41,958 bases of DNA from Bacteroidaceae bacterium (GTDB lineage Bacteria > Bacteroidota > Bacteroidia > Bacteroidales > Bacteroidaceae). Under the pieces are notes generated by a model. That model ran no database searches and had not been told where the DNA came from. It was given only the letters and a program-made list of their open reading frames with translations. Location of the stretch: assembly GCA_017469685.1 (NCBI GenBank), contig JAFUFW010000085.1:1-41958 (forward strand), written 5' to 3'. Of the stretch, positions 3,159 to 12,483 are shown one piece after another (position 1 is the stretch's first letter; every line of letters starts with the position of its first letter). A program made the translations under genes and the position numbers.

Positions 3159-3401
3159 ATGAAAAAGAATGTAGTTTGGGCCAGGATAGTGGCACTTTTT
3201 GTGCAGAAGAGAGTGGGAAAGAACGGCAAGACTCATCAATTAGTTTATGTAAGCGTTTGGAATATGGGACATAATCGCAAGAAGAATAACCTGAGGTATC
3301 CATATTTGATTCGTAAGAGCTTCTCTATGAGCCATCGCATCGGTGATTTGATAAACCATGCTCGAATCTTCCCGATGGATTCACTGCGGCTCGTCCCGTA
3401 G
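3159..3401 (+). pseudogene. Decayed copy of the sugar-transferase 5' end plus unknown tail
   Basis: An 80-codon open frame. Residues 1-24 read as a sugar phosphotransferase N-terminus with its middle removed: VVWARIVAL is followed directly by FVQKRVGKNGK. The split transferase at 8528 has DRVVAF, then about 28 further residues including the membrane helix, then FVQKRVGKGGK. At DNA level the upstream TAATAAGAT, the AGTGGC block and GCAGAAGAGAGTGGGAAAG also align with 8520-8680, leaving about 90 bases missing here. The remaining 56 codons (SHRIGDLINHARIFPMDSLRLVP at the end) are not recognised; they could be the tail of another glycan gene. Without the membrane helix and catalytic part it cannot be a working transferase. 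Confidence 0.6.
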
Positions 3402-3522
3402 ATAATAATGGTAGGCCTGAGTGCAGCAGCGAGAGGGGAAGGGTGAATTATGGTTTATGGTTAGGGGTTTATGGTTAAGGGTGAATGGCTCCTAAAACGA
3501 TAACGAAAACGAAAATTCAAGT
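3402..3522 (+). repeat. Word-repeat intergenic region before the defence operon
   Basis: About 120 bases without a gene. It holds two kinds of degenerate tandem words: TTATGGTTAGGGGTTTATGG and neighbours at 3446-3487, and AAACGATAACGAAAACGAAAA-like sequence at 3494-3514. The second kind recurs at 8467-8489, 9859-9873 and 12382-12419. I see no convincing TAnnTTTG promoter here, although the downstream three-gene operon needs one nearby. Confidence 0.6.
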
Positions 3523-4824
3523 ATGAAACGCTCTCACATATTTTTATTCTGGACTCTAATCATATTAACAACATTATCCATAATAGGGGTATATGTTTGG
3601 AGACTTTGGGATTTGAAGTTTGCTACTGAACCTGGAGCCTTCGGAACATTTGGGGACTATATTGGAGGGGCTTTAGGAGCTTTTACCGGTCTTTTAAGTG
3701 TGATATTTCTTTACTTTACCTACTCCAAACAACTTGAAATATATAGCGAGCAAAAGAGACAAACGGAACAGCAGCAGTTTGAACAGACCTTTTTCCACTT
3801 GTTAGATAACTTTATAAACCTGCGCGAGCATCTGAAAAACGAGGAGGAACGGAGCGAGGGACTTGCCTACCTTCATTCTGTACGACTACTGATAGAGAAG
3901 GATATTGATAGAGTGTGTAAAGAGAAGGACTCCTTCAATGTTCTAAACAATGTTGCAACCCGCAACAAGATAGAAGAAGTTTATAAAACTGCTTTTATCT
4001 CAGAGTCAGACCAACTGGGGCATTATTTCCGCTCGCTATATCATTTGCTAAAGTATATTGAAGAGCATTGTCCTAAAGACGTGAAGAAAAAGATGTACTT
4101 TGACTTAGTGCAGGCACAGATGAATACAGACGAACTGTATCTGACGTGTTTGAACGGTATAAGCAGTTATGGACGGAAAAAATTAAGACCGCTACTGAAT
4201 GATTCGTCGTTTCTTGAGAACTTGGCGATAGATGAGAATGAGAGTATTCGACAATTAGTGTACTTCTTCTATCCTAAGACCAAGCAGAAGGATCCGAATG
4301 GCGTGCGTAAAAACGTGATATTAGTGTCGGGAACTGAAGGAACAAGAAAGGGCGAACTTGCCAAAATATTAATATCAGAACATCTGCCAGCCCGTGTAAC
4401 ATCGATACAGGCAATGCTCATTCGAGCAAATAAGAGTCCGTATGAACTGATTAAAGGCTGTGATACACTTAAGTATATACTGGAGACGACCATGGATCCT
4501 GATGATATATATGTTGTAAATTGCAGTTTCTGTGAACTTCAAAAAGATGGTAGAGACGAACGCATTCCCTCAACCGTATATGAAAATATAAATCCGGTAG
4601 CCGTAATTTATCTACATTCACCTATTGACTATCTGATTCATAGCGTAAAGCATGATGATAAGGTCTCGTTGGATGAAGAAAGGGCAAGGCTGTATCAGCA
4701 GGACGAAGAGAATGCTGCCTTAGAATATGCAGGCATGAAAGAAATACCTCTATATAAGTTTGATACCAAAGATATGCCAAAAGTAGTGGATAAGATTAGG
4801 GGAATCGTGGCGGCATTTGATTAG
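3523..4824 (+). CDS. Putative AbiC-like membrane protein fused to a P-loop kinase-like domain
   Basis: A 433-residue protein with two parts. Two membrane helices lie at about residues 5-26 and 46-67, followed by a charged helical region starting QQQFEQTFFHLLDNFINLREHL. This matches the layout of the putative phage abortive infection (AbiC-like) family as I know it. From about residue 265 there is a second domain, NVILVSGTEGTRKGELAK, which aligns with the adenylate-kinase P-loop GxPGxGKGTxAK, with Lys276 present and the middle Gly replaced by Arg275. Downstream VIYLHSPIDYLIHSV and DEERARLY fit the strand and lid of nucleotide kinases. It is the first gene of a three-gene operon (11 bases to the next). 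Probable role: membrane-anchored sensor or effector of phage defence, with the kinase-like part binding or phosphorylating a nucleotide. The fusion is my reading and needs profile confirmation. Confidence 0.65.
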   Translation: MKRSHIFLFWTLIILTTLSIIGVYVWRLWDLKFATEPGAFGTFGDYIGGALGAFTGLLSVIFLYFTYSKQLEIYSEQKRQTEQQQFEQTFFHLLDNFINLREHLKNEEERSEGLAYLHSVRLLIEKDIDRVCKEKDSFNVLNNVATRNKIEEVYKTAFISESDQLGHYFRSLYHLLKYIEEHCPKDVKKKMYFDLVQAQMNTDELYLTCLNGISSYGRKKLRPLLNDSSFLENLAIDENESIRQLVYFFYPKTKQKDPNGVRKNVILVSGTEGTRKGELAKILISEHLPARVTSIQAMLIRANKSPYELIKGCDTLKYILETTMDPDDIYVVNCSFCELQKDGRDERIPSTVYENINPVAVIYLHSPIDYLIHSVKHDDKVSLDEERARLYQQDEENAALEYAGMKEIPLYKFDTKDMPKVVDKIRGIVAAFD

Positions 4825-4835
4825 GAGGAGTAGTA

Positions 4836-6890
4836 ATGAATACAGAAATGCGTGAGGTGCTGGGGCAGATAGACGAACTTATCTCGAAGAAGGGGTTTGT
4901 TTATGCACTAATCATGGTTCAGATAGAGGATGAGTCAATAGCCACCATCAATATAGAGAAAAGGAATAACCAAGAACGGCTTTCTGGAAATGAGATACTT
5001 TTCCTATGGAGCCTTCTGATTAACAAAGAGGATTTCTGGCATTATCCTAAAGATTTTGATGGTCTCTATAAGATGAGGTGCGAAATACCTCGCCTGATGG
5101 ATGAATTACACCTTACATTCTTTTCAGGGCTTGCTTCTCACGTACAGGAAGTCATGGTTGGGAATCTGAAAGAGTTTAAGCCCAATTATGACGGTGCTGC
5201 CTTCCAAGAAGCGATTTTCTATAGTGGAGGTGCTCTGTATGATGAGGAGTACATCTACTACATCAAGCAGCGTTACGAAGATGATGCCCAATGGCTGAAA
5301 GAGCATAAAGGCTACGACAAGGATGAGTTCTGTGACATAGCCAGTAAGATAAAGCAGACGGTGTGGGATAAGATTAGGCGCTTCCGACTGCAATCCTTGC
5401 CCGAAACATGGGAGCAACAGTTGGAAAGGAAACCTTATGATTTGACGGAAGAAGAATTCCGAAAGGAGTTGACGATCTGGCAGTTCTTCTATAACCAGGA
5501 AGAGAGGCTGACATTACAAGAATTCTGCGATAGGATTAAGGATGCTATTTCCTTTACAAAGGATGATATAGATGAATATGATGGTGTTGAGAACTACCTA
5601 AAGTTGTTCAGCGTAGAGCCTTCAAAAGGATGTAACGAGACGTGTAAAGAACCGGGCGACTACAGCATCTTGATGTCATTCCCGCTCATGAAAACACCCA
5701 GTGGCTCATTCCTTGTGACCGAAGCACAGCAAGTATTCAAGAGTATGTATGATGTGCCGCGATACTGGCTGAATGAGCAGCTTGACGAGCACAAAAAGAT
5801 AGGGTCACATACGGGCGATTTTTCTGAAATGCAGACACTGAAAGTGCTGAAAGGCATATTTGGAGAGAACTGTTATAAGGATGTCATTGTACGGAAAGGG
5901 AAGAATCAAGTAACCGACATTGATGCCTTGTGCATTTGGAAGGACTTTGCCATTTGTTTTCAGATAAAGTCGAAAGGGCTGACATTGGCATCACGACAAG
6001 GGAATCTGGAAGCCATACGGACGGACTTTACGAAAAGTTTTCAAGCGGCTTATAAACAAGGTCTGAAATGCAGGGAAGCATTGCTACATCAGACGGAATA
6101 CAGCTTTATAGATGAGGAAACGCGCCAAAAGGTTTCGTTCCCGTCGTTGAAAGAAGTTTATGTCGTTTGTGAAACATCTGATGAATACCCATCGTTGACG
6201 CACCAAATGGCAGTATTGCTACACAGAGAGCCATCGGAGCCTGCGGCTCTTGCTGTCAATGTGTTTGATGTAAGCGTGATGGGCTTGTATTTGAATGAGC
6301 CGTACTACTTCATGCATTATGTTCACAACCGTTTGAAACACTATGGCAATACCCGCACGGACGTAGAGTTGAATTGTCTGTCTGCATATACCTATAACCG
6401 GCTATGTCTGGAGGGTGGTGAGTATGACGCATTAATGTTTGACAACTCGTTTGCAAAGGCTATAGATGCAGAACTCTTACCACAGTATGCTAAGCATCAA
6501 GAAATAACGGTGGACAATAGGGTTTGGCGTGACAGCACATTCGATGCTCTGGTAAAGGAGATTGACTCCTCGTCTTATAGTGGTTTGAGTCAGACTGTGT
6601 TGAACCTACTGGATTTCAGCAGAGAAGAAGTGAAGCTGATTGGAATGAAGATGAACGAACTTCTCCAGAAAGGCGCAGCCGAGAAAGAAGAGTATTACAG
6701 CTTCCGAAAGGGAGATTTCGGTTTTACTTTTGTCATGATGGAGATTGGAACCAAACAAGAAGTTCATGACTTTATTCAGGCGGTCTGCTTAAACGAGCTC
6801 AAAAAGAACAAATCGAGGAGTTGGTTCACTATAGCGCACTTTATTGGCTGTGTCTCATTGGTCGGAACACTGGCATACGTATCAAGGTAA
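4836..6890 (+). CDS. NERD/PD-(D/E)XK nuclease-like protein with C-terminal membrane helix
   Basis: A 684-residue protein. The region from about residue 325 to 385 carries the nuclease-fold signature: E331 in GDFSEMQTLKVL, D361-I-D363 in VTDIDAL, and Q376-I-K378 in CFQIKSKG. These are the E..D..QxK residues of NERD/Mrr-type PD-(D/E)XK enzymes, which cut nucleic acid using a metal ion. The roughly 320-residue N-terminal region and the region after residue 400 are not recognised. The last 23 residues (SWFTIAHFIGCVSLVGTLAY) form a hydrophobic helix that could anchor the protein by its tail. It is the middle gene of the cassette, 11 bases after the AbiC-like gene and 18 before the HEPN gene. Likely the nucleic-acid-cutting effector; whether DNA or RNA is the target cannot be told. 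Confidence 0.65.
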   Translation: MNTEMREVLGQIDELISKKGFVYALIMVQIEDESIATINIEKRNNQERLSGNEILFLWSLLINKEDFWHYPKDFDGLYKMRCEIPRLMDELHLTFFSGLASHVQEVMVGNLKEFKPNYDGAAFQEAIFYSGGALYDEEYIYYIKQRYEDDAQWLKEHKGYDKDEFCDIASKIKQTVWDKIRRFRLQSLPETWEQQLERKPYDLTEEEFRKELTIWQFFYNQEERLTLQEFCDRIKDAISFTKDDIDEYDGVENYLKLFSVEPSKGCNETCKEPGDYSILMSFPLMKTPSGSFLVTEAQQVFKSMYDVPRYWLNEQLDEHKKIGSHTGDFSEMQTLKVLKGIFGENCYKDVIVRKGKNQVTDIDALCIWKDFAICFQIKSKGLTLASRQGNLEAIRTDFTKSFQAAYKQGLKCREALLHQTEYSFIDEETRQKVSFPSLKEVYVVCETSDEYPSLTHQMAVLLHREPSEPAALAVNVFDVSVMGLYLNEPYYFMHYVHNRLKHYGNTRTDVELNCLSAYTYNRLCLEGGEYDALMFDNSFAKAIDAELLPQYAKHQEITVDNRVWRDSTFDALVKEIDSSSYSGLSQTVLNLLDFSREEVKLIGMKMNELLQKGAAEKEEYYSFRKGDFGFTFVMMEIGTKQEVHDFIQAVCLNELKKNKSRSWFTIAHFIGCVSLVGTLAYVSR

Positions 6891-6908
6891 TAAGAAGATA
6901 GTAGCGAG

Positions 6909-8435
6909 ATGGAAATTAAGGAACAGCTGAAAGAATCGGAAGTGACTCAGACTTCGGAGATGTTGAAGGGATTTGGCTATGTGATTAATGAAGTCATGGC
7001 ACGACGGAAGCCTATTGAAGAGGTTGACTCCATTATTGATGCCGTTGAGGAGTTGCTAAAAGGTGGTCAGCTGAATACTTTTGATAGGCTGATGTCGTAC
7101 TATGTTCTGGGACAGGCCTGTAATACGAAGAAGTGTTTCACACAAGCCCCCTCGCAAGCGATGTATAACCATCCTTTGATGATGAATGAGATATTCTGCT
7201 ATAGGATGACACTGAGGATTGCAGATGATGTGAGGCACAAGAAGCTTTGGGCACTCTATAACACGGTACGGGGGTGCGAATATCAGACATACGTACATTT
7301 AGGGAATGTATATGACCATCTGGGACGGCACCAAGAAGCATTGCATTCTTATTTCAAAGCAGGACTACTGATGCCTGATGACTATATGTGGCAATTCAAT
7401 CTCGGATTCTCGTATGGAGGAATGTTCGGTTATTATGAGAATAGAGTGCAGCCGTTTGTAGTGGCGAAGGCAAAGGATCTGTTGAAGCAGTTTCTGAATA
7501 AGCCGGAAACGACACAATCAGTCAGGGATATGTACCGTAGAATAAGCGGATTGAAGACACCAGCCAAACTGGATGAAAAGAATGTGGATTACGGGACATC
7601 GGAAGAAGATGAATACAATATGTGGGTGAATGAGAACTATCTGCGGTTGAATGGCTATAATGAGATTAATCCTGCATCGCTGTATGCACAGGATGACAGT
7701 CTGTATTTTGATTTTCTATACACGGCCAAGGGTGCTGAAAATGAGAGCTATCGGATGATGTCGCTACTGAATGAAATCAAACAGGAATACGTATCAGCAA
7801 GGTTTATGCTCTATTCTTATTTCAAAGAATCGGGAAAGGTGCATTTCTCGGATAAGAAGGTTCAGTTGGCGGACATGCTAGATTATTCTAACTATTCGTA
7901 TCATGTGGAGTTGGCAAAGGCCGCCTTCAGGTCACTGTATTCCTTGCTGGATAAGATTGCCTTCTCCCTGAATGGATATTTGGGGCTTGGGATAAATGGG
8001 AAAGAAGTTTCGTTTAAGGGATTATGGTACAGTGACAAGAAAAGCCGAAATATCAGGGCGGAGATTGTGAATTATTCGACGGTGATTTCCCTGGCAGGGC
8101 TGCTTTTTATCAGGAATGACATCTATGGTGGGAATGAATACTATCTTCAAGCAGAGGAGACGAAGAACCTACAGAAGGTAAGGAATGCGATGGAGCATAG
8201 GGCAATACAGATAGTAGATGATGGGCAGATGGAGGACAATGAAGCGGTGCTGATCATCTCGCGTGGCGAGTTTGAGGAAGTCGCGATGAATCTGATTGCG
8301 ACTGTGAGAGAGGCCATATTCTGCTTTGTGAATGCAGTGAAGCATATTGAGTATGACAAAACAACGGGAGCAAAGAAGCAAGGTATTGTGATGGAAAGCA
8401 TGGTGGGGAGCGTGATGGACGAAGAAAAAGTGTAG
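6909..8435 (+). CDS. TPR plus LA2681-type HEPN protein
   Basis: A 508-residue protein. Residues about 120-170 contain tetratricopeptide-like helices (TYVHLGNVYDHLGRHQEALH, then a second helix pair). The C-terminal 200 residues look like the LA2681 HEPN family: LYSLLDKIAFSLNGYL, FKGLWY and then RNAMEHR, giving the RxxxxH ribonuclease motif at R425-H430. HEPN proteins of this kind are usually metal-independent RNases of toxin-antitoxin or abortive-infection systems. As the last gene of the three-gene cassette it is the best candidate for the growth-arresting RNase, with the TPR part sensing or docking a partner. No antitoxin (MNT or small protein) is adjacent, so activity is presumably held in check by the other two proteins or by a trigger. 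Confidence 0.7.
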   Translation: MEIKEQLKESEVTQTSEMLKGFGYVINEVMARRKPIEEVDSIIDAVEELLKGGQLNTFDRLMSYYVLGQACNTKKCFTQAPSQAMYNHPLMMNEIFCYRMTLRIADDVRHKKLWALYNTVRGCEYQTYVHLGNVYDHLGRHQEALHSYFKAGLLMPDDYMWQFNLGFSYGGMFGYYENRVQPFVVAKAKDLLKQFLNKPETTQSVRDMYRRISGLKTPAKLDEKNVDYGTSEEDEYNMWVNENYLRLNGYNEINPASLYAQDDSLYFDFLYTAKGAENESYRMMSLLNEIKQEYVSARFMLYSYFKESGKVHFSDKKVQLADMLDYSNYSYHVELAKAAFRSLYSLLDKIAFSLNGYLGLGINGKEVSFKGLWYSDKKSRNIRAEIVNYSTVISLAGLLFIRNDIYGGNEYYLQAEETKNLQKVRNAMEHRAIQIVDDGQMEDNEAVLIISRGEFEEVAMNLIATVREAIFCFVNAVKHIEYDKTTGAKKQGIVMESMVGSVMDEEKV

Positions 8436-8527
8436 AACCCTAAAATATATAAATAATGGGTTAGATAATGAAAACGATAACGATAACGGGGTTGAACACG
8501 AATTAACATTAATTGCACCTTAATAAG
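8436..8527 (+). repeat. Word-repeat spacer after the defence operon
   Basis: Short gap containing the AACGATAACGATAACGG word (8467-8489), the same class as upstream of the cassette at 3494-3514. The two copies roughly bracket the three-gene operon, but the class also occurs at unrelated places, so they are not clear attachment sites. No terminator hairpin is seen. Confidence 0.5.
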
Positions 8528-8749
8528 ATGATACTGAAGTTCATATTTGATAGGGTAGTGGCGTTTGTAGGTCTTTTAATTCTATGGCCTATACTAATTA
8601 TTGTGGCCATACTTGTTAAAATAAAGACGCCGGGCGGTCCTGTTCTCTTCGTACAAAAGAGAGTAGGGAAGGGTGGCAAGTTGTTTAAGTGCCATAAATT
8701 TCGCACGATGACGGTACTTGATGGTTCAAAGTTCAAGGTTCGAGGTTGA
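8528..8749 (+). pseudogene. Undecaprenyl-phosphate sugar phosphotransferase, N-terminal half
   Basis: A 73-residue piece of a WcaJ/PglC-type phosphoglycosyl transferase, which loads the first sugar phosphate on undecaprenyl phosphate in the inner membrane. It has the re-entrant membrane helix (about residues 11-31), the substrate loop PVLFVQKRVGKGGKLFK and the conserved KFRTM, after which the frame runs into TGA. The stop lies in a repetitive insert at 8723-8770 (GGTTCAAAGTTCAAGGTTCG and more) not present in normal family members. The ATG at 8528 fits the family start; the TTG at 8513 only adds MHLNK. The C-terminal half continues in another frame from 8746. A functional enzyme would need both halves. 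Confidence 0.75.
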
Positions 8750-9330
8750 ACAATGAAACTGATAACAAGAAGGGTGGGTGGTCGTCTGTCTCTGTGGCGG
8801 GGGATTGCCGTATCACACCCTTTGGGGCAAAGCTGCGTCACTACAAACTTGATGAACTGCCGGGGCTTTGGGATGTACTTCGTGGTAAGATGAGCTTCGT
8901 TGGACCACGACCTGACGTGCCTGGGTATGCGGACAAACTCGTGGGGGATGATCGTGATGTGCTGAAGCTGAGGCCGGGGATTACTGGGCCTGCAACGTTG
9001 AAATATCGATTAGAAGATGAGTACCTTACAAACGCAAGGACGCTGGTAGCCAAGCTTTACGATAAAAATCAAGAATTAGAGAATTCGAGAATTGTGCCTT
9101 CTGGGTCGCAAAGCTCAAAATCTGAAAAAAATCTGCTTAAAAATCTGCCAAAGGATTGGGAGAAGATGAGTGATCAGGAGTTGGTGGTGTGGTATAATAA
9201 TGTAATTTATCCAAATAAGGTGCGTTTGAACTGCTATTACTATCGCCACTATTCTTTCATCAATGACATCCAAATGATTATCTGTACTGTACTTGGGAAG
9301 AAGATGAAGTATGCGGGGGAAGAGATATGA
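8746..9330 (+). pseudogene. Undecaprenyl-phosphate sugar phosphotransferase, C-terminal half
   Basis: A 194-residue continuation of the same transferase in a different frame: SVSVAGDCRITPFGAKL, KLDELPGLWDVLRGKMSFVGP, the RPG and ITGPATLKY motifs, and the C-terminal VIYPNKVRLNCYYYRHYSF block. The conserved Asp-Glu of the catalytic region belongs to the N-terminal half's KFRTM domain partner, so this piece alone should be inactive. It could be translated separately: TTG at 8746 overlaps the upstream TGA as TTGA. A second unusual insert at about 9065-9160 (tandem GAATT and AAATCTG words) lengthens the normally shorter linker before MSDQELVVWYNN but keeps the frame. Most likely a recently damaged gene; a translationally coupled split enzyme is the alternative. 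Confidence 0.75.
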
Positions 9331-9606: not shown

Positions 9607-10190
9607 AATTTACAAAATGTTTCTTTATGGAGAAAGAATAATGTATAAAAAGTTTCTTTCAAAAGAAAGATTTTGTGGATATTGTTTTGTTTGGAAAGAA
9701 AAAACGTGGAATAGATGGTATAAAATGAAGATTTAAAAGTTGCATGTTAACGGTTAATGTTTCAATTGCTTGGATGCATTGAAGGCTCTAGCTGATGCGC
9801 AGGGGCTTACAGCTGTTGGCTGGATGGGATAGACGCATTGCGTCTCAAAGATAATCAGAACGATAACGAAAACTTTTTTCAACTTTAACCTTAACGATAA
9901 ACCTTAATATAAGTTTCGGATGTTCATTTACTATTTGACAATTTACGATTTACTATGGATTTACAATGGGATTGATTTACTATTTCAGCACCTGCGGTGT
10001 TCTGTGTAAATTGCTAAATCGCCAAATCGTAAATAAATTGTACATTGTAAATCGTTAAATTGTAAATATGACGTCGGCTTCAGAAAGTTGAGTAACCTTA
10101 ACTTTTGGTTAGCGCAAGATATTTAGGGATGAAGAAAAGAAAAAGAATGTTAAAAGTGACAAATTATCCCTTAGGGTACCGGAAAAGTAG
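9607..10190 (+). repeat. Gene-free region with palindromic word repeats
   Basis: About 580 bases without a credible gene. It contains an A/T-rich part (9607-9740), the word AACGATAACGAAAAC at 9859-9873, and a large imperfect palindrome at about 9927-10070. In the palindrome the left half repeats ATTTACnATTTAC-type words and the right half their reverse complements (GTAAATCGTTAAATTGTAAA), around a small central hairpin CACCTGCGGTG. No tRNA, ORF or terminator is evident. Confidence 0.5.
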
Positions 10191-10236: not shown

Positions 10237-10623
10237 ATGGCTTTTAAGGAAGAACAAATACAAGATGTTTGGAATCGCGCATCAACCGTGGAGGGTTATG
10301 ACAAGAACCGCTTCAGGAAAGATGCGTGCGGTGCTTGGATTATAAGGGAAAAGTATGGCGATACCGATAGTATGTATGGCTGGGTAATAGACCATGTCGT
10401 CCCTCAGTCTATCCTTGTGGAGAAGGGTTTCCAGAAAGAGATGATTGACAACCCACAGAATCTGCGGGCATTGCAGCACGAGAACAATGCCAGCAAGAAT
10501 GATGATTATCCCAGTTATTCGGCGGTTGTGACCTCGGATGGCACCGAAAACATTTCCTCTTGGAAATTCCTGGAGGTGAACAAGAAAAAACAAGCATTGT
10601 TAAATAAATTATACCATTTATAG
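10237..10623 (+). CDS. HNH endonuclease, first gene of a defence-like operon
   Basis: A 128-residue HNH nuclease. The motif core is visible: WVIDHVVPQS (D52, H53), then DNPQNLRALQHENNASKNDD with N75, H81, N84 and K87, matching the H-N-H/K arrangement that coordinates a metal for DNA cleavage. No zinc-binding CxxC pairs and no extra domain are present, so DNA recognition probably comes from partners. The ATPase gene starts 2 bases after its stop and the DUF4435 gene overlaps the ATPase, making a compact three-gene operon. HNH plus ATPase recalls Septu (PtuA/PtuB), but there the ATPase comes first. The ATG at 10237 follows a -7 box by a suitable distance. Confidence 0.8.
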   Translation: MAFKEEQIQDVWNRASTVEGYDKNRFRKDACGAWIIREKYGDTDSMYGWVIDHVVPQSILVEKGFQKEMIDNPQNLRALQHENNASKNDDYPSYSAVVTSDGTENISSWKFLEVNKKKQALLNKLYHL

Positions 10624-10625
10624 AA

Positions 10626-11534
10626 ATGCTGAACACTATACATATCGATGGCTTGTATGGCTTATATAATTATACGATTGATCTCACGCAAGGCGAGGAC
10701 AAGCGGTTGAAGATAATAACCGGTCCCAACGGTTATGGTAAGACTACAATACTACAATTGATTTATGCCCTTTTCGCTAAGGACATGGATTTGTTCTACC
10801 ATATACCATTCTCAAGGATGGCATTTTCTTTTGACGATTTTGTCATCCAGGTGTTTCAGACGAGGACTGCGATTCAACCGGATGAAGAGTCTGACCTGCC
10901 TGGTGATGAACAAATCAGCATCAGCTTTGAACTGGATGGGTACAAGGAAACCAAAATAGACGGGCCGCTGGAATTGGTGCTCAACACGATGAAGTGTTTT
11001 TACCTGACGGACAAGCGCGTGCTGCTTAGAAACAGGGAGCAACGAAAGCGGACTGAAAATGCTGATACGGATTCCTCCATGAAAAAGGTGGCAGAAAAGA
11101 TAGCTGAAATCAAGAAGCAGGGCGACAATGAACGCGGTGTTGAATTCTTCAAAGAATTGGTTTCGTTTTTCAAGTTTGCAGACAAGGAAATGATGGTCGA
11201 TGAAATGTTTGGTATCCGGTTTAAGATGAACAATGCTTCGAGGACCATTATTCCTGTTACTGCTCTCTCTTCTGGTGAGAAGCATGTGTTGCTTCAGCTC
11301 TTTGAGCTTGTTTTTGACGGAAAGGCGGGAGATTTGGTTATGATTGACGAGCCGGAACTCTCTTTCCATCCGGCATGGCTTAATGTGTATGTATCGGTGT
11401 TGGAGAAGATACAGGACTTTAAACTGGAGGAGGGACGTGAGATGCAGATAATCCTGGCCACTCACTCACCTATGCTGGTTGGGGGGCGTTGGGACGAGAC
11501 GTTGGATCTTTATACGTTGAGACAGAATGGCTGA
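10626..11534 (+). CDS. ABC/SMC-type AAA ATPase, AriA-like
   Basis: A 302-residue ABC/OLD-type ATPase. Walker A GPNGYGKT lies at residues 33-40, the ABC signature LSSGEKH at about residue 215, Walker B LVMIDEPELSFHP soon after, and the switch histidine in ILATHSPM. Such ATPases act as sensors or clamps in defence systems (Septu PtuA, PARIS AriA, Gabija, retrons). It is followed, with an 8-base overlap, by a DUF4435 protein, the pairing that defines PARIS. It is short for AriA: it lacks a long coiled-coil insertion, having only one charged helix pair (about residues 140-175). Likely senses a phage protein and controls the HNH and/or TOPRIM nuclease. Confidence 0.8.
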   Translation: MLNTIHIDGLYGLYNYTIDLTQGEDKRLKIITGPNGYGKTTILQLIYALFAKDMDLFYHIPFSRMAFSFDDFVIQVFQTRTAIQPDEESDLPGDEQISISFELDGYKETKIDGPLELVLNTMKCFYLTDKRVLLRNREQRKRTENADTDSSMKKVAEKIAEIKKQGDNERGVEFFKELVSFFKFADKEMMVDEMFGIRFKMNNASRTIIPVTALSSGEKHVLLQLFELVFDGKAGDLVMIDEPELSFHPAWLNVYVSVLEKIQDFKLEEGREMQIILATHSPMLVGGRWDETLDLYTLRQNG

Positions 11535-12357
11535 AGAAGTGGTAATTGCGTCTATGCGTGACGCAAGTGAGGCCGTCGAGGATGCCAAGGTGGCTGACGT
11601 GAAATCTCTTTTTGATACGCATGTCAATGATGGGAAAGTTATATTGGTCGTAGAGGGATCTGATGACAAGGAGGTTTATGAGAAGGTAATGGATGCTACT
11701 GCTGTTTGCTTCTATCCTGACGGTAATTGCGAAAAGCATTTCGTTATCCTTAACGCATTGAACGGACGCTATGGCAATCGTCTGCTGGCTATCAAGGATG
11801 CCGACTTCGACAGGTTGAATGGAAAACGGCACCCTTATTCCAATCTTGTGCTTACTGATACGCACGACATGGAGGGTATGATAGTTGGGGCGTCTCTGTC
11901 AGAATTACAGGGCGAGGATGCCGACCGTTGTCAGGGCATCGACCTTGATGTTATTTATTCTGAGTTGGAAGACATCTCTTACTTGAAGTGGTTTAATCAT
12001 ACGAATCATTGCGGCATCAATTTCAGTAATGTGACTCTTGACTTGGATTTGAATGCCTATTTCAGTGCTTGTGTCGCCAATACCGATAACGTTGTAAGAG
12101 TGACATTGGCAGATTTGTTCGCTTTCAAGGCCGTGCATCAAGGAGTATCGGGAAAAGAGTTATGCAACGGCCACGACATTTTTGAGAGGGTATTTGTCCG
12201 TGCGCATGCTGCTAAAGTGAGCAATTTCGCGAAAAGACCTTTTTTCAGAAGGCTTAGGAGGGCATATCCCAAAGAAATGTTTGTGGATACTGCGCTCTAT
12301 CGGGAGATCCGTGCATGGGAAGCTGTGAATGGATATACTGTGCTGGCCGTTGCATAA
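11527..12357 (+). CDS. DUF4435 TOPRIM-like protein, AriB-like
   Basis: A 276-residue DUF4435 protein. The TOPRIM-like acidic residues are clear: E43 in ILVVEGSDDKEVY, D91-A-D93 in AIKDADFD, and the family block LTDTHDMEGMI (D114, E116). In PARIS the DUF4435 protein AriB is a nuclease released by AriA that cuts host tRNA and stops growth. Here it overlaps the ATPase gene by 8 bases (ATGGCTGA), so translation is coupled, as expected for subunits of one complex. What differs from PARIS is the HNH gene in front and the small ATPase. The C-terminal 60 residues are basic and helical. Confidence 0.75.
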   Translation: MAEEVVIASMRDASEAVEDAKVADVKSLFDTHVNDGKVILVVEGSDDKEVYEKVMDATAVCFYPDGNCEKHFVILNALNGRYGNRLLAIKDADFDRLNGKRHPYSNLVLTDTHDMEGMIVGASLSELQGEDADRCQGIDLDVIYSELEDISYLKWFNHTNHCGINFSNVTLDLDLNAYFSACVANTDNVVRVTLADLFAFKAVHQGVSGKELCNGHDIFERVFVRAHAAKVSNFAKRPFFRRLRRAYPKEMFVDTALYREIRAWEAVNGYTVLAVA

Positions 12358-12483
12358 ACAATTGTGTGCGTGATGGGATTGAACGATAACGAAAACTCTT
12401 TATCAACGATAATGATAACTTTTCGAACGCAGGTCGGAATGAGGACTGAGGAATGAGGACTGAAGAATAATCAATATAATATT
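12358..12483 (+). repeat. Word repeats between the defence operon and the DegT gene
   Basis: Holds AACGATAACGAAAAC at 12382-12396, AACGATAATGATAAC at 12405-12419, and a tandem GGAATGAGGACTGAGGAATG-type run at 12436-12468. No terminator or promoter is convincing. Confidence 0.6.

Follow-up and report, generated by a model that had tools for sequence, protein, structure and literature searches.

A NERD-like/HEPN gene pair behind different upstream genes in a Bacteroidaceae bacterium and a Prevotella genome: a candidate movable defence module

The window, meaning the whole stretch of 41,958 nucleotides that was analysed (contig JAFUFW010000085.1 of the Bacteroidaceae bacterium assembly GCA_017469685.1), is an exopolysaccharide-type locus, as judged from sugar transferase matches in Pfam and, for the other genes, from names assigned by eye. 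Near its left end are three genes (g1, g2, and g3) encoded on the + strand, with 11 bases between g1 and g2 and 18 between g2 and g3; the coordinates confirm the three co-directional reading frames and both gaps given in the preliminary description of this DNA. The G+C content of the trio (0.426) is lower than that of the contig (0.497).

3523..4824, + strand: g1, putAbiC-type protein of 433 aa (ORF list, Pfam, and PADLOC)
4836..6890, + strand: g2, NERD / PD-(D/E)XK-like protein of 684 aa (NERD 2.7e-4, conserved residues)
6909..8435, + strand: g3, protein of 508 aa with an LA2681-type HEPN domain and a TPR-like stretch (PF18733 6.4e-54)

g1 had been described as a membrane protein of putative AbiC type with two helices, and this stands: it passes the Pfam cut-off for putAbiC (PF16872; 60.5 bits vs 22), with the core at residues 162-237, and its sequence is hydrophobic in two segments, around residues 6-24 and 47-65. 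A match to phrog_8999 spans residues 5-237. In PADLOC, the AbiP model matches g1 at 6.9e-17, and the AbiC model does not qualify as a match (E 0.054). g1 resembles putAbiC (PF16872) and the AbiP of PADLOC in its two membrane segments and putAbiC core, but extends about 190 aa beyond them at its C-terminus. The extension (residues 241-433, 193 aa) had no significant match in Pfam, among PDB sequences, on plasmids, or in 148 further genomes from the same order, nor in any relative compared. The P-loop formerly placed in it is a degenerate GTEGTRKGEL at 270, and GxxxxGK[S/T] is absent. A P-loop kinase identity for the C-terminus found no support: the sole PDB sequence match, to dephospho-CoA kinase, is not significant (E 0.54) and Pfam gives none.

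The residues pointed out earlier in g2 (E331, D361, D363, Q376, and K378) are all present, and we take E331/D361-D363/Q376-K378 to be a PD-(D/E)XK motif. Across 14 aligned rows, D363 and Q376 are found in 14 and K378 and E331 in 12, and position 361 is D in three and E in nine. The E...D...(E/Q)xK residues by which PD-(D/E)XK nucleases are recognised are conserved among the g2 relatives, and these conserved motifs suggest that g2 is a nuclease. The description of g2 as NERD-like holds for these nuclease-type residues but less well for the domain itself, since the NERD match (PF08378) scores 21.9, just below the cut-off of 22.1. Among the relatives scanned, this cut-off is passed by L046 (31.6); L063 (21.0), L047 (19.9), L045 (19.8), and L033 (15) fall below it, and Pfam detects no NERD in L035 or L036. 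The only PADLOC match of g2 is a weak one to MTase_III (0.0036). A C-terminal membrane helix, also attributed to g2, is not supported: the window protein passes the hydropathy threshold at residues 664-682, but the 84%-identical copy in L063 does not, and the peak is absent at that end of the other 12 relatives.

Plasmid records with a g2-type gene number 30, of which 19 are from Agrobacterium; the alignments cover at least 80% of g2 in 26 of the 30, and identities are 23-25% in the rows checked. Genes of this type also occur in nine viral-collection contigs. These NERD/SEC-C proteins of plasmids and viral contigs (H1, H2, H4; L143-L151) align over most of g2 but differ in that SEC-C was detected in all three plasmid relatives scanned and not in g2, and in that g2 is followed by a HEPN gene. 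Neither g1 nor g3 lies near the g2-type gene at three plasmid and nine viral-collection loci. A viral scan with g1 or g2 as single query gave no relative, and phage records searched with g2 gave nothing; with g3, one unannotated phage record was retrieved (L059).

For g3, the assignment as an LA2681-type HEPN protein is well borne out, with a score of 182.9 bits for HEPN_LA2681 (PF18733) vs a cut-off of 27, and the R425xxxxH430 pair, an R-x4-6-H motif, in 96 rows of the 97-row alignment, with a gap in the other one (the alignment took in only ORFs below 1e-15 against the g3 profile). This conserved motif suggests that g3 is an RNase-type nuclease. The TPR half of the earlier TPR-HEPN label is weaker than claimed: the TPR_1 match at residues 126-151 (23.9 bits) is under the cut-off of 27.8, and the top PDB sequence match for the stretch is to designed TPR proteins (0.00045). 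LA2681 HEPN proteins have been described as fused to TPR or in an operon with TPR, with Rx4-6H conserved (Anantharaman et al. 2013, PMC3710099, available text). With these proteins g3 shares the HEPN domain with Rx4H and, less certainly, a TPR-like stretch; it differs in being paired with a NERD-like gene, the available text of PMC3710099 listing TPR fusion or operon only.

The trio had been proposed as one defence system, and lack of conservation of the three genes together was named beforehand as what would speak against it. Profiles built from g1, g2, and g3 were run over the ORFs of 95 g3-type, 16 g2-type, and 4 g1-type loci. The whole trio was found in 0 of 95 g3-type, 0 of 16 g2-type, and 0 of 22 g1-type records, the last with flanks of about 1.5 kb and four of them (L037-L040) also in wider stretches, L037 being a 4.9-kb contig. 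One g3-type record contains g2 (L063) and none contains g1, and no partner gene accompanies any of the g2-type or g1-type records. These are counts of records, not of independent events, and include near-duplicates or gene parts (L147/L148, L150/L151, L052/L105, and L020/L032). The genome scan with g3 covers the best 80 of 138 confirmed loci and rests on one peptide pattern, and of the plasmid records, 3 of 30 for g2, 8 of 23 for g3, and 0 of 3 for g1 were opened as loci. Genome sampling gave a similar picture. Among 399 sampled genomes of the family, g1-type genes are present in 22 and g2-type genes in 5, and the genome of the window is the sole overlap of the two lists. The g3 protein query returned four of these genomes, the three besides that of the window as weak matches to residues 47-187, outside the HEPN domain. 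Within 139 genomes of the genus, g2 was found in the genome of the window only, and the HEPN family of g3 is present in 4 of 395 genomes of the phylum. A fixed trio is not supported, and we discarded a conserved three-gene unit on the co-occurrence counts.

Such counts are in line with another account, which we regard as a real possibility though one we do not favour, namely that a defence island gathered three independent single-gene defence genes next to one another, their co-transcription being incidental. Consistent with this, g1-type genes occur in 21 other genomes of the 399, and 0 of 22 g1-type records have g2 or g3 in their flanks of about 1.5 kb; none of the 16 g2-type records has g1 or g3, and of the 95 g3-type records 94 lack g2 and all 95 lack g1. 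The next closest relatives of g3, in L064 (54% identity) and L065 (50%), also lack g2. Each of the g2 and g3 families can evidently work without the other, since 94 of 95 g3-type and 16 of 16 g2-type records have no such partner.

What this account does not explain well is the one further case of g2 with g3. In an uncultured Prevotella MAG (L063), g2 (84% identity) and g3 (86%) are adjacent and 14 bases apart, and the similarity at the DNA level is confined to the following stretch, which begins exactly at the ATG of g2:

4836..8396, + strand: g2-g3 module, DNA similarity of 81.7% to L063

Between the window and L063, dS is 0.8-1.2, and dN/dS values of 0.08-0.12 (g2) and 0.06-0.10 (g3) show both genes to be under purifying selection. 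The genes on either side of the pair differ. Upstream of g2, L063 has a metallo-beta-lactamase/trypsin-like gene pair in place of g1. The nearer of the two, encoding 1316 aa, ends four bases before g2 and has trypsin-type Pfam matches, all under cut-off, as well as PADLOC matches to LmuA (1.2e-16) and PD-Lambda-4_A (1.3e-16); GxxxxGK[S/T] was not found in it. The gene preceding it exceeds the Lactamase_B cut-off and matches LmuA (2.7e-71), RTasMBL (1.7e-51), and Avs1a (2e-34); the HxHxD motif was not found in it. Downstream of g3 are conjugation-type genes, named by eye, and g1 is absent from the 17.5 kb examined. Because g2 and g3 stay together under selection while their surroundings differ, we consider them a movable two-gene module, one that has a single case besides the window, and the two cases could be explained by one transfer of two neighbouring genes. 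Chance neighbours in an island would be less expected to remain together while dS reached about 1 and the context changed, or to keep the tight spacing of 11, 18, and (in L063) 14 bases.

A two-gene order under joint selection is also what would be seen if g3 were a toxic HEPN RNase controlled by g2, or by the long non-nuclease parts of g2, as in a toxin-antitoxin system. There is precedent in RNase LS, a HEPN toxin encoded along with the antitoxin RnlB (PMC3710099, available text). We nevertheless find this highly improbable, because the 16 of 16 g2-type records without g3 and the 94 of 95 g3-type records without g2 imply that neither gene needs the other for tolerance, and g2 retains its nuclease-type residues.

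The trio as a whole is bounded by repeats, as is a second cassette further right:

3494..3511, + strand: left copy of an 18-bp direct repeat (AACGAW repeats at 3496-3513), 11 bases before the g1 start
8471..8488, + strand: right copy of the 18-bp direct repeat (AACGAW repeats at 8473-8484), 35 bases after the g3 stop
9859..9870, + strand: AACGAWAACGAW site, left of an HNH/AriA-like/AriB-like cassette
12382..12393, + strand: AACGAWAACGAW site, 24 bases past the AriB-like gene

The second defence-type cassette (window 10237-12357) consists of an HNH gene and a PARIS-like pair. The HNH-like gene has a GmrSD_C match under cut-off, the ATPase matches PtuA (1.9e-25) and AriA (2.2e-24) and has an intact Walker A, and the AriB/DUF4435-type gene matches AriB at 2.7e-9.

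The AACGAW hexamer repeats that bound both the trio and this cassette lie between genes. With at most one mismatch, the 18-bp pattern occurs exactly twice in the genome of the window (2.83 Mb, 87% complete) and a control pattern not at all. In a genome of the same genus (G362) the pattern has 47 matches, overlapping ones included and again with at most one mismatch, and in two other genomes none. The G362 repeat is dispersed, and of 33 matches examined, 22 do not lie in an ORF of 90 aa or more. For AACGAWAACGAW, there are seven matches at six sites in the genome of the window (one match for the backward control); four of the sites belong to this contig, where each is intergenic and on the + strand, and the other two are inside ORFs. 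If placement were random, the chance of at least four of six sites falling in this 1.5% of the genome would be about 7e-7, for a question posed post hoc. Transposition was considered as the source of the direct repeats and set aside, since the dispersal in G362 makes import from such a genome simpler. The block was probably transferred into this exopolysaccharide-type locus from a relative with a repeat-rich genome, a route that we infer, and it is possible that the AACGAW repeats themselves guide insertion.

That the copies of the 18-bp repeat flank the whole trio suggests arrival as one unit and, together with the single strand and the gaps of 11 and 18 bases, would suit a genuine three-gene system in which g1 is a membrane sensor that switches on g2 and g3. 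The repeats, however, bound other genes of the locus too, g1 is found with g2 or g3 at no other locus examined, and in L063 the pair is under purifying selection with no g1 in the 17.5 kb, so that we regard such a system as unlikely.

The reading that we prefer, with a confidence of about one half, makes g2-g3 a movable module of two genes whose most likely role is that of an anti-phage effector pair acting by abortive infection. In such a pair, g2 would act as a PD-(D/E)XK-type nuclease and g3 as a HEPN RNase, with the TPR-like part of g3 receiving a trigger or restraining the HEPN part. The two would cooperate behind differing upstream defence genes, here g1, which would be a separable partner; relatives of g1 do occur without the g2-g3 module. 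The antiviral role and the roles of the individual parts are predicted from domain content and gene order. Should the pair work as a module with upstream genes that differ from case to case, it would exemplify defence effectors that can be separated from their sensor; in the window and L063 it comes with two different natural partners.

A bolder version of the two-gene module, which we consider rather doubtful, is an undescribed plug-in module of a DNA and an RNA nuclease set on unrelated sensors, as one combination of a mix-and-match set whose cassettes spread via the AACGAW repeats. The sensors would be the putAbiC membrane protein here and the MBL/trypsin-type pair in L063. A hint of mix-and-match comes from a protein family common to L036 (7870-9117) and L097 (6211-7596), related at 1e-8, which is encoded 6 bases after the g2-type gene in L036 and 62 bases before the g3-type gene in L097. 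The family has no Pfam match, and from its N-terminus our guess is that it may be PIN-like. A DUF5677 gene one base upstream of the g2-type gene in L035 was tried as a hidden HEPN and rejected: it has one RX4H, but so do 406 of 2000 shuffled versions of the protein.

Other neighbours of g3-type genes are varied. Family scans were made for 89 of 144 neighbours, hand-picked for resembling real genes. These include restriction-modification genes of type I, type IIG models (up to 3 of 89), and models of mad2 (5 of 89) and PD-T7-1 (2 of 89), but unrelated genes are among them too, for instance an efflux pump and an IMS polymerase. A UG5-type reverse transcriptase is encoded 170 bases upstream of the g3 relative in L064, and a HEPN/RES-type gene 270 bases upstream of that in L065. 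Both relatives lie among polysaccharide-type genes (Caps_synth in L064, by eye in L065) and near other defence-type genes. The window, L064, and L065 hint that polysaccharide loci in Bacteroidales collect defence cassettes.

As the preliminary description had it, these defence-type genes are not listed as one system: PADLOC 2.0.0 has no system model for g2 or g3, and g3 has no match in PADLOC at all. The putative NERD domain in a defence-type gene is shared with Mokosh type I and Nhi-like systems (PMC10952713, available text) and with PglW of type 2 BREX (PMC12839542, available text), from which the present case differs in that PADLOC gives no such model for g2 and the partner is a HEPN gene. 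Neither the pair nor the trio is described in the available text of PMC3710099, PMC12839542, PMC13092281, and PMC10952713. We put forward a NERD-like and an LA2681 HEPN protein, matched by no PADLOC system model, as defence candidates.

Two further observations concern the sugar-transferase genes around the trio. Upstream, a short ORF (3159-3401) carries ALFVQKRVGKNGK, which resembles the sugar-transferase LFVQKRVGKGGK; the ORF has no Pfam match to the sugar-transferase family and is possibly a degraded copy of such a gene. Downstream, a sugar-transferase gene (window 8513-9330) is divided between two reading frames: Bac_transf positions 1-60 match in one and 65-145 in the other, and the split may equally reflect a mutation or an assembly error.
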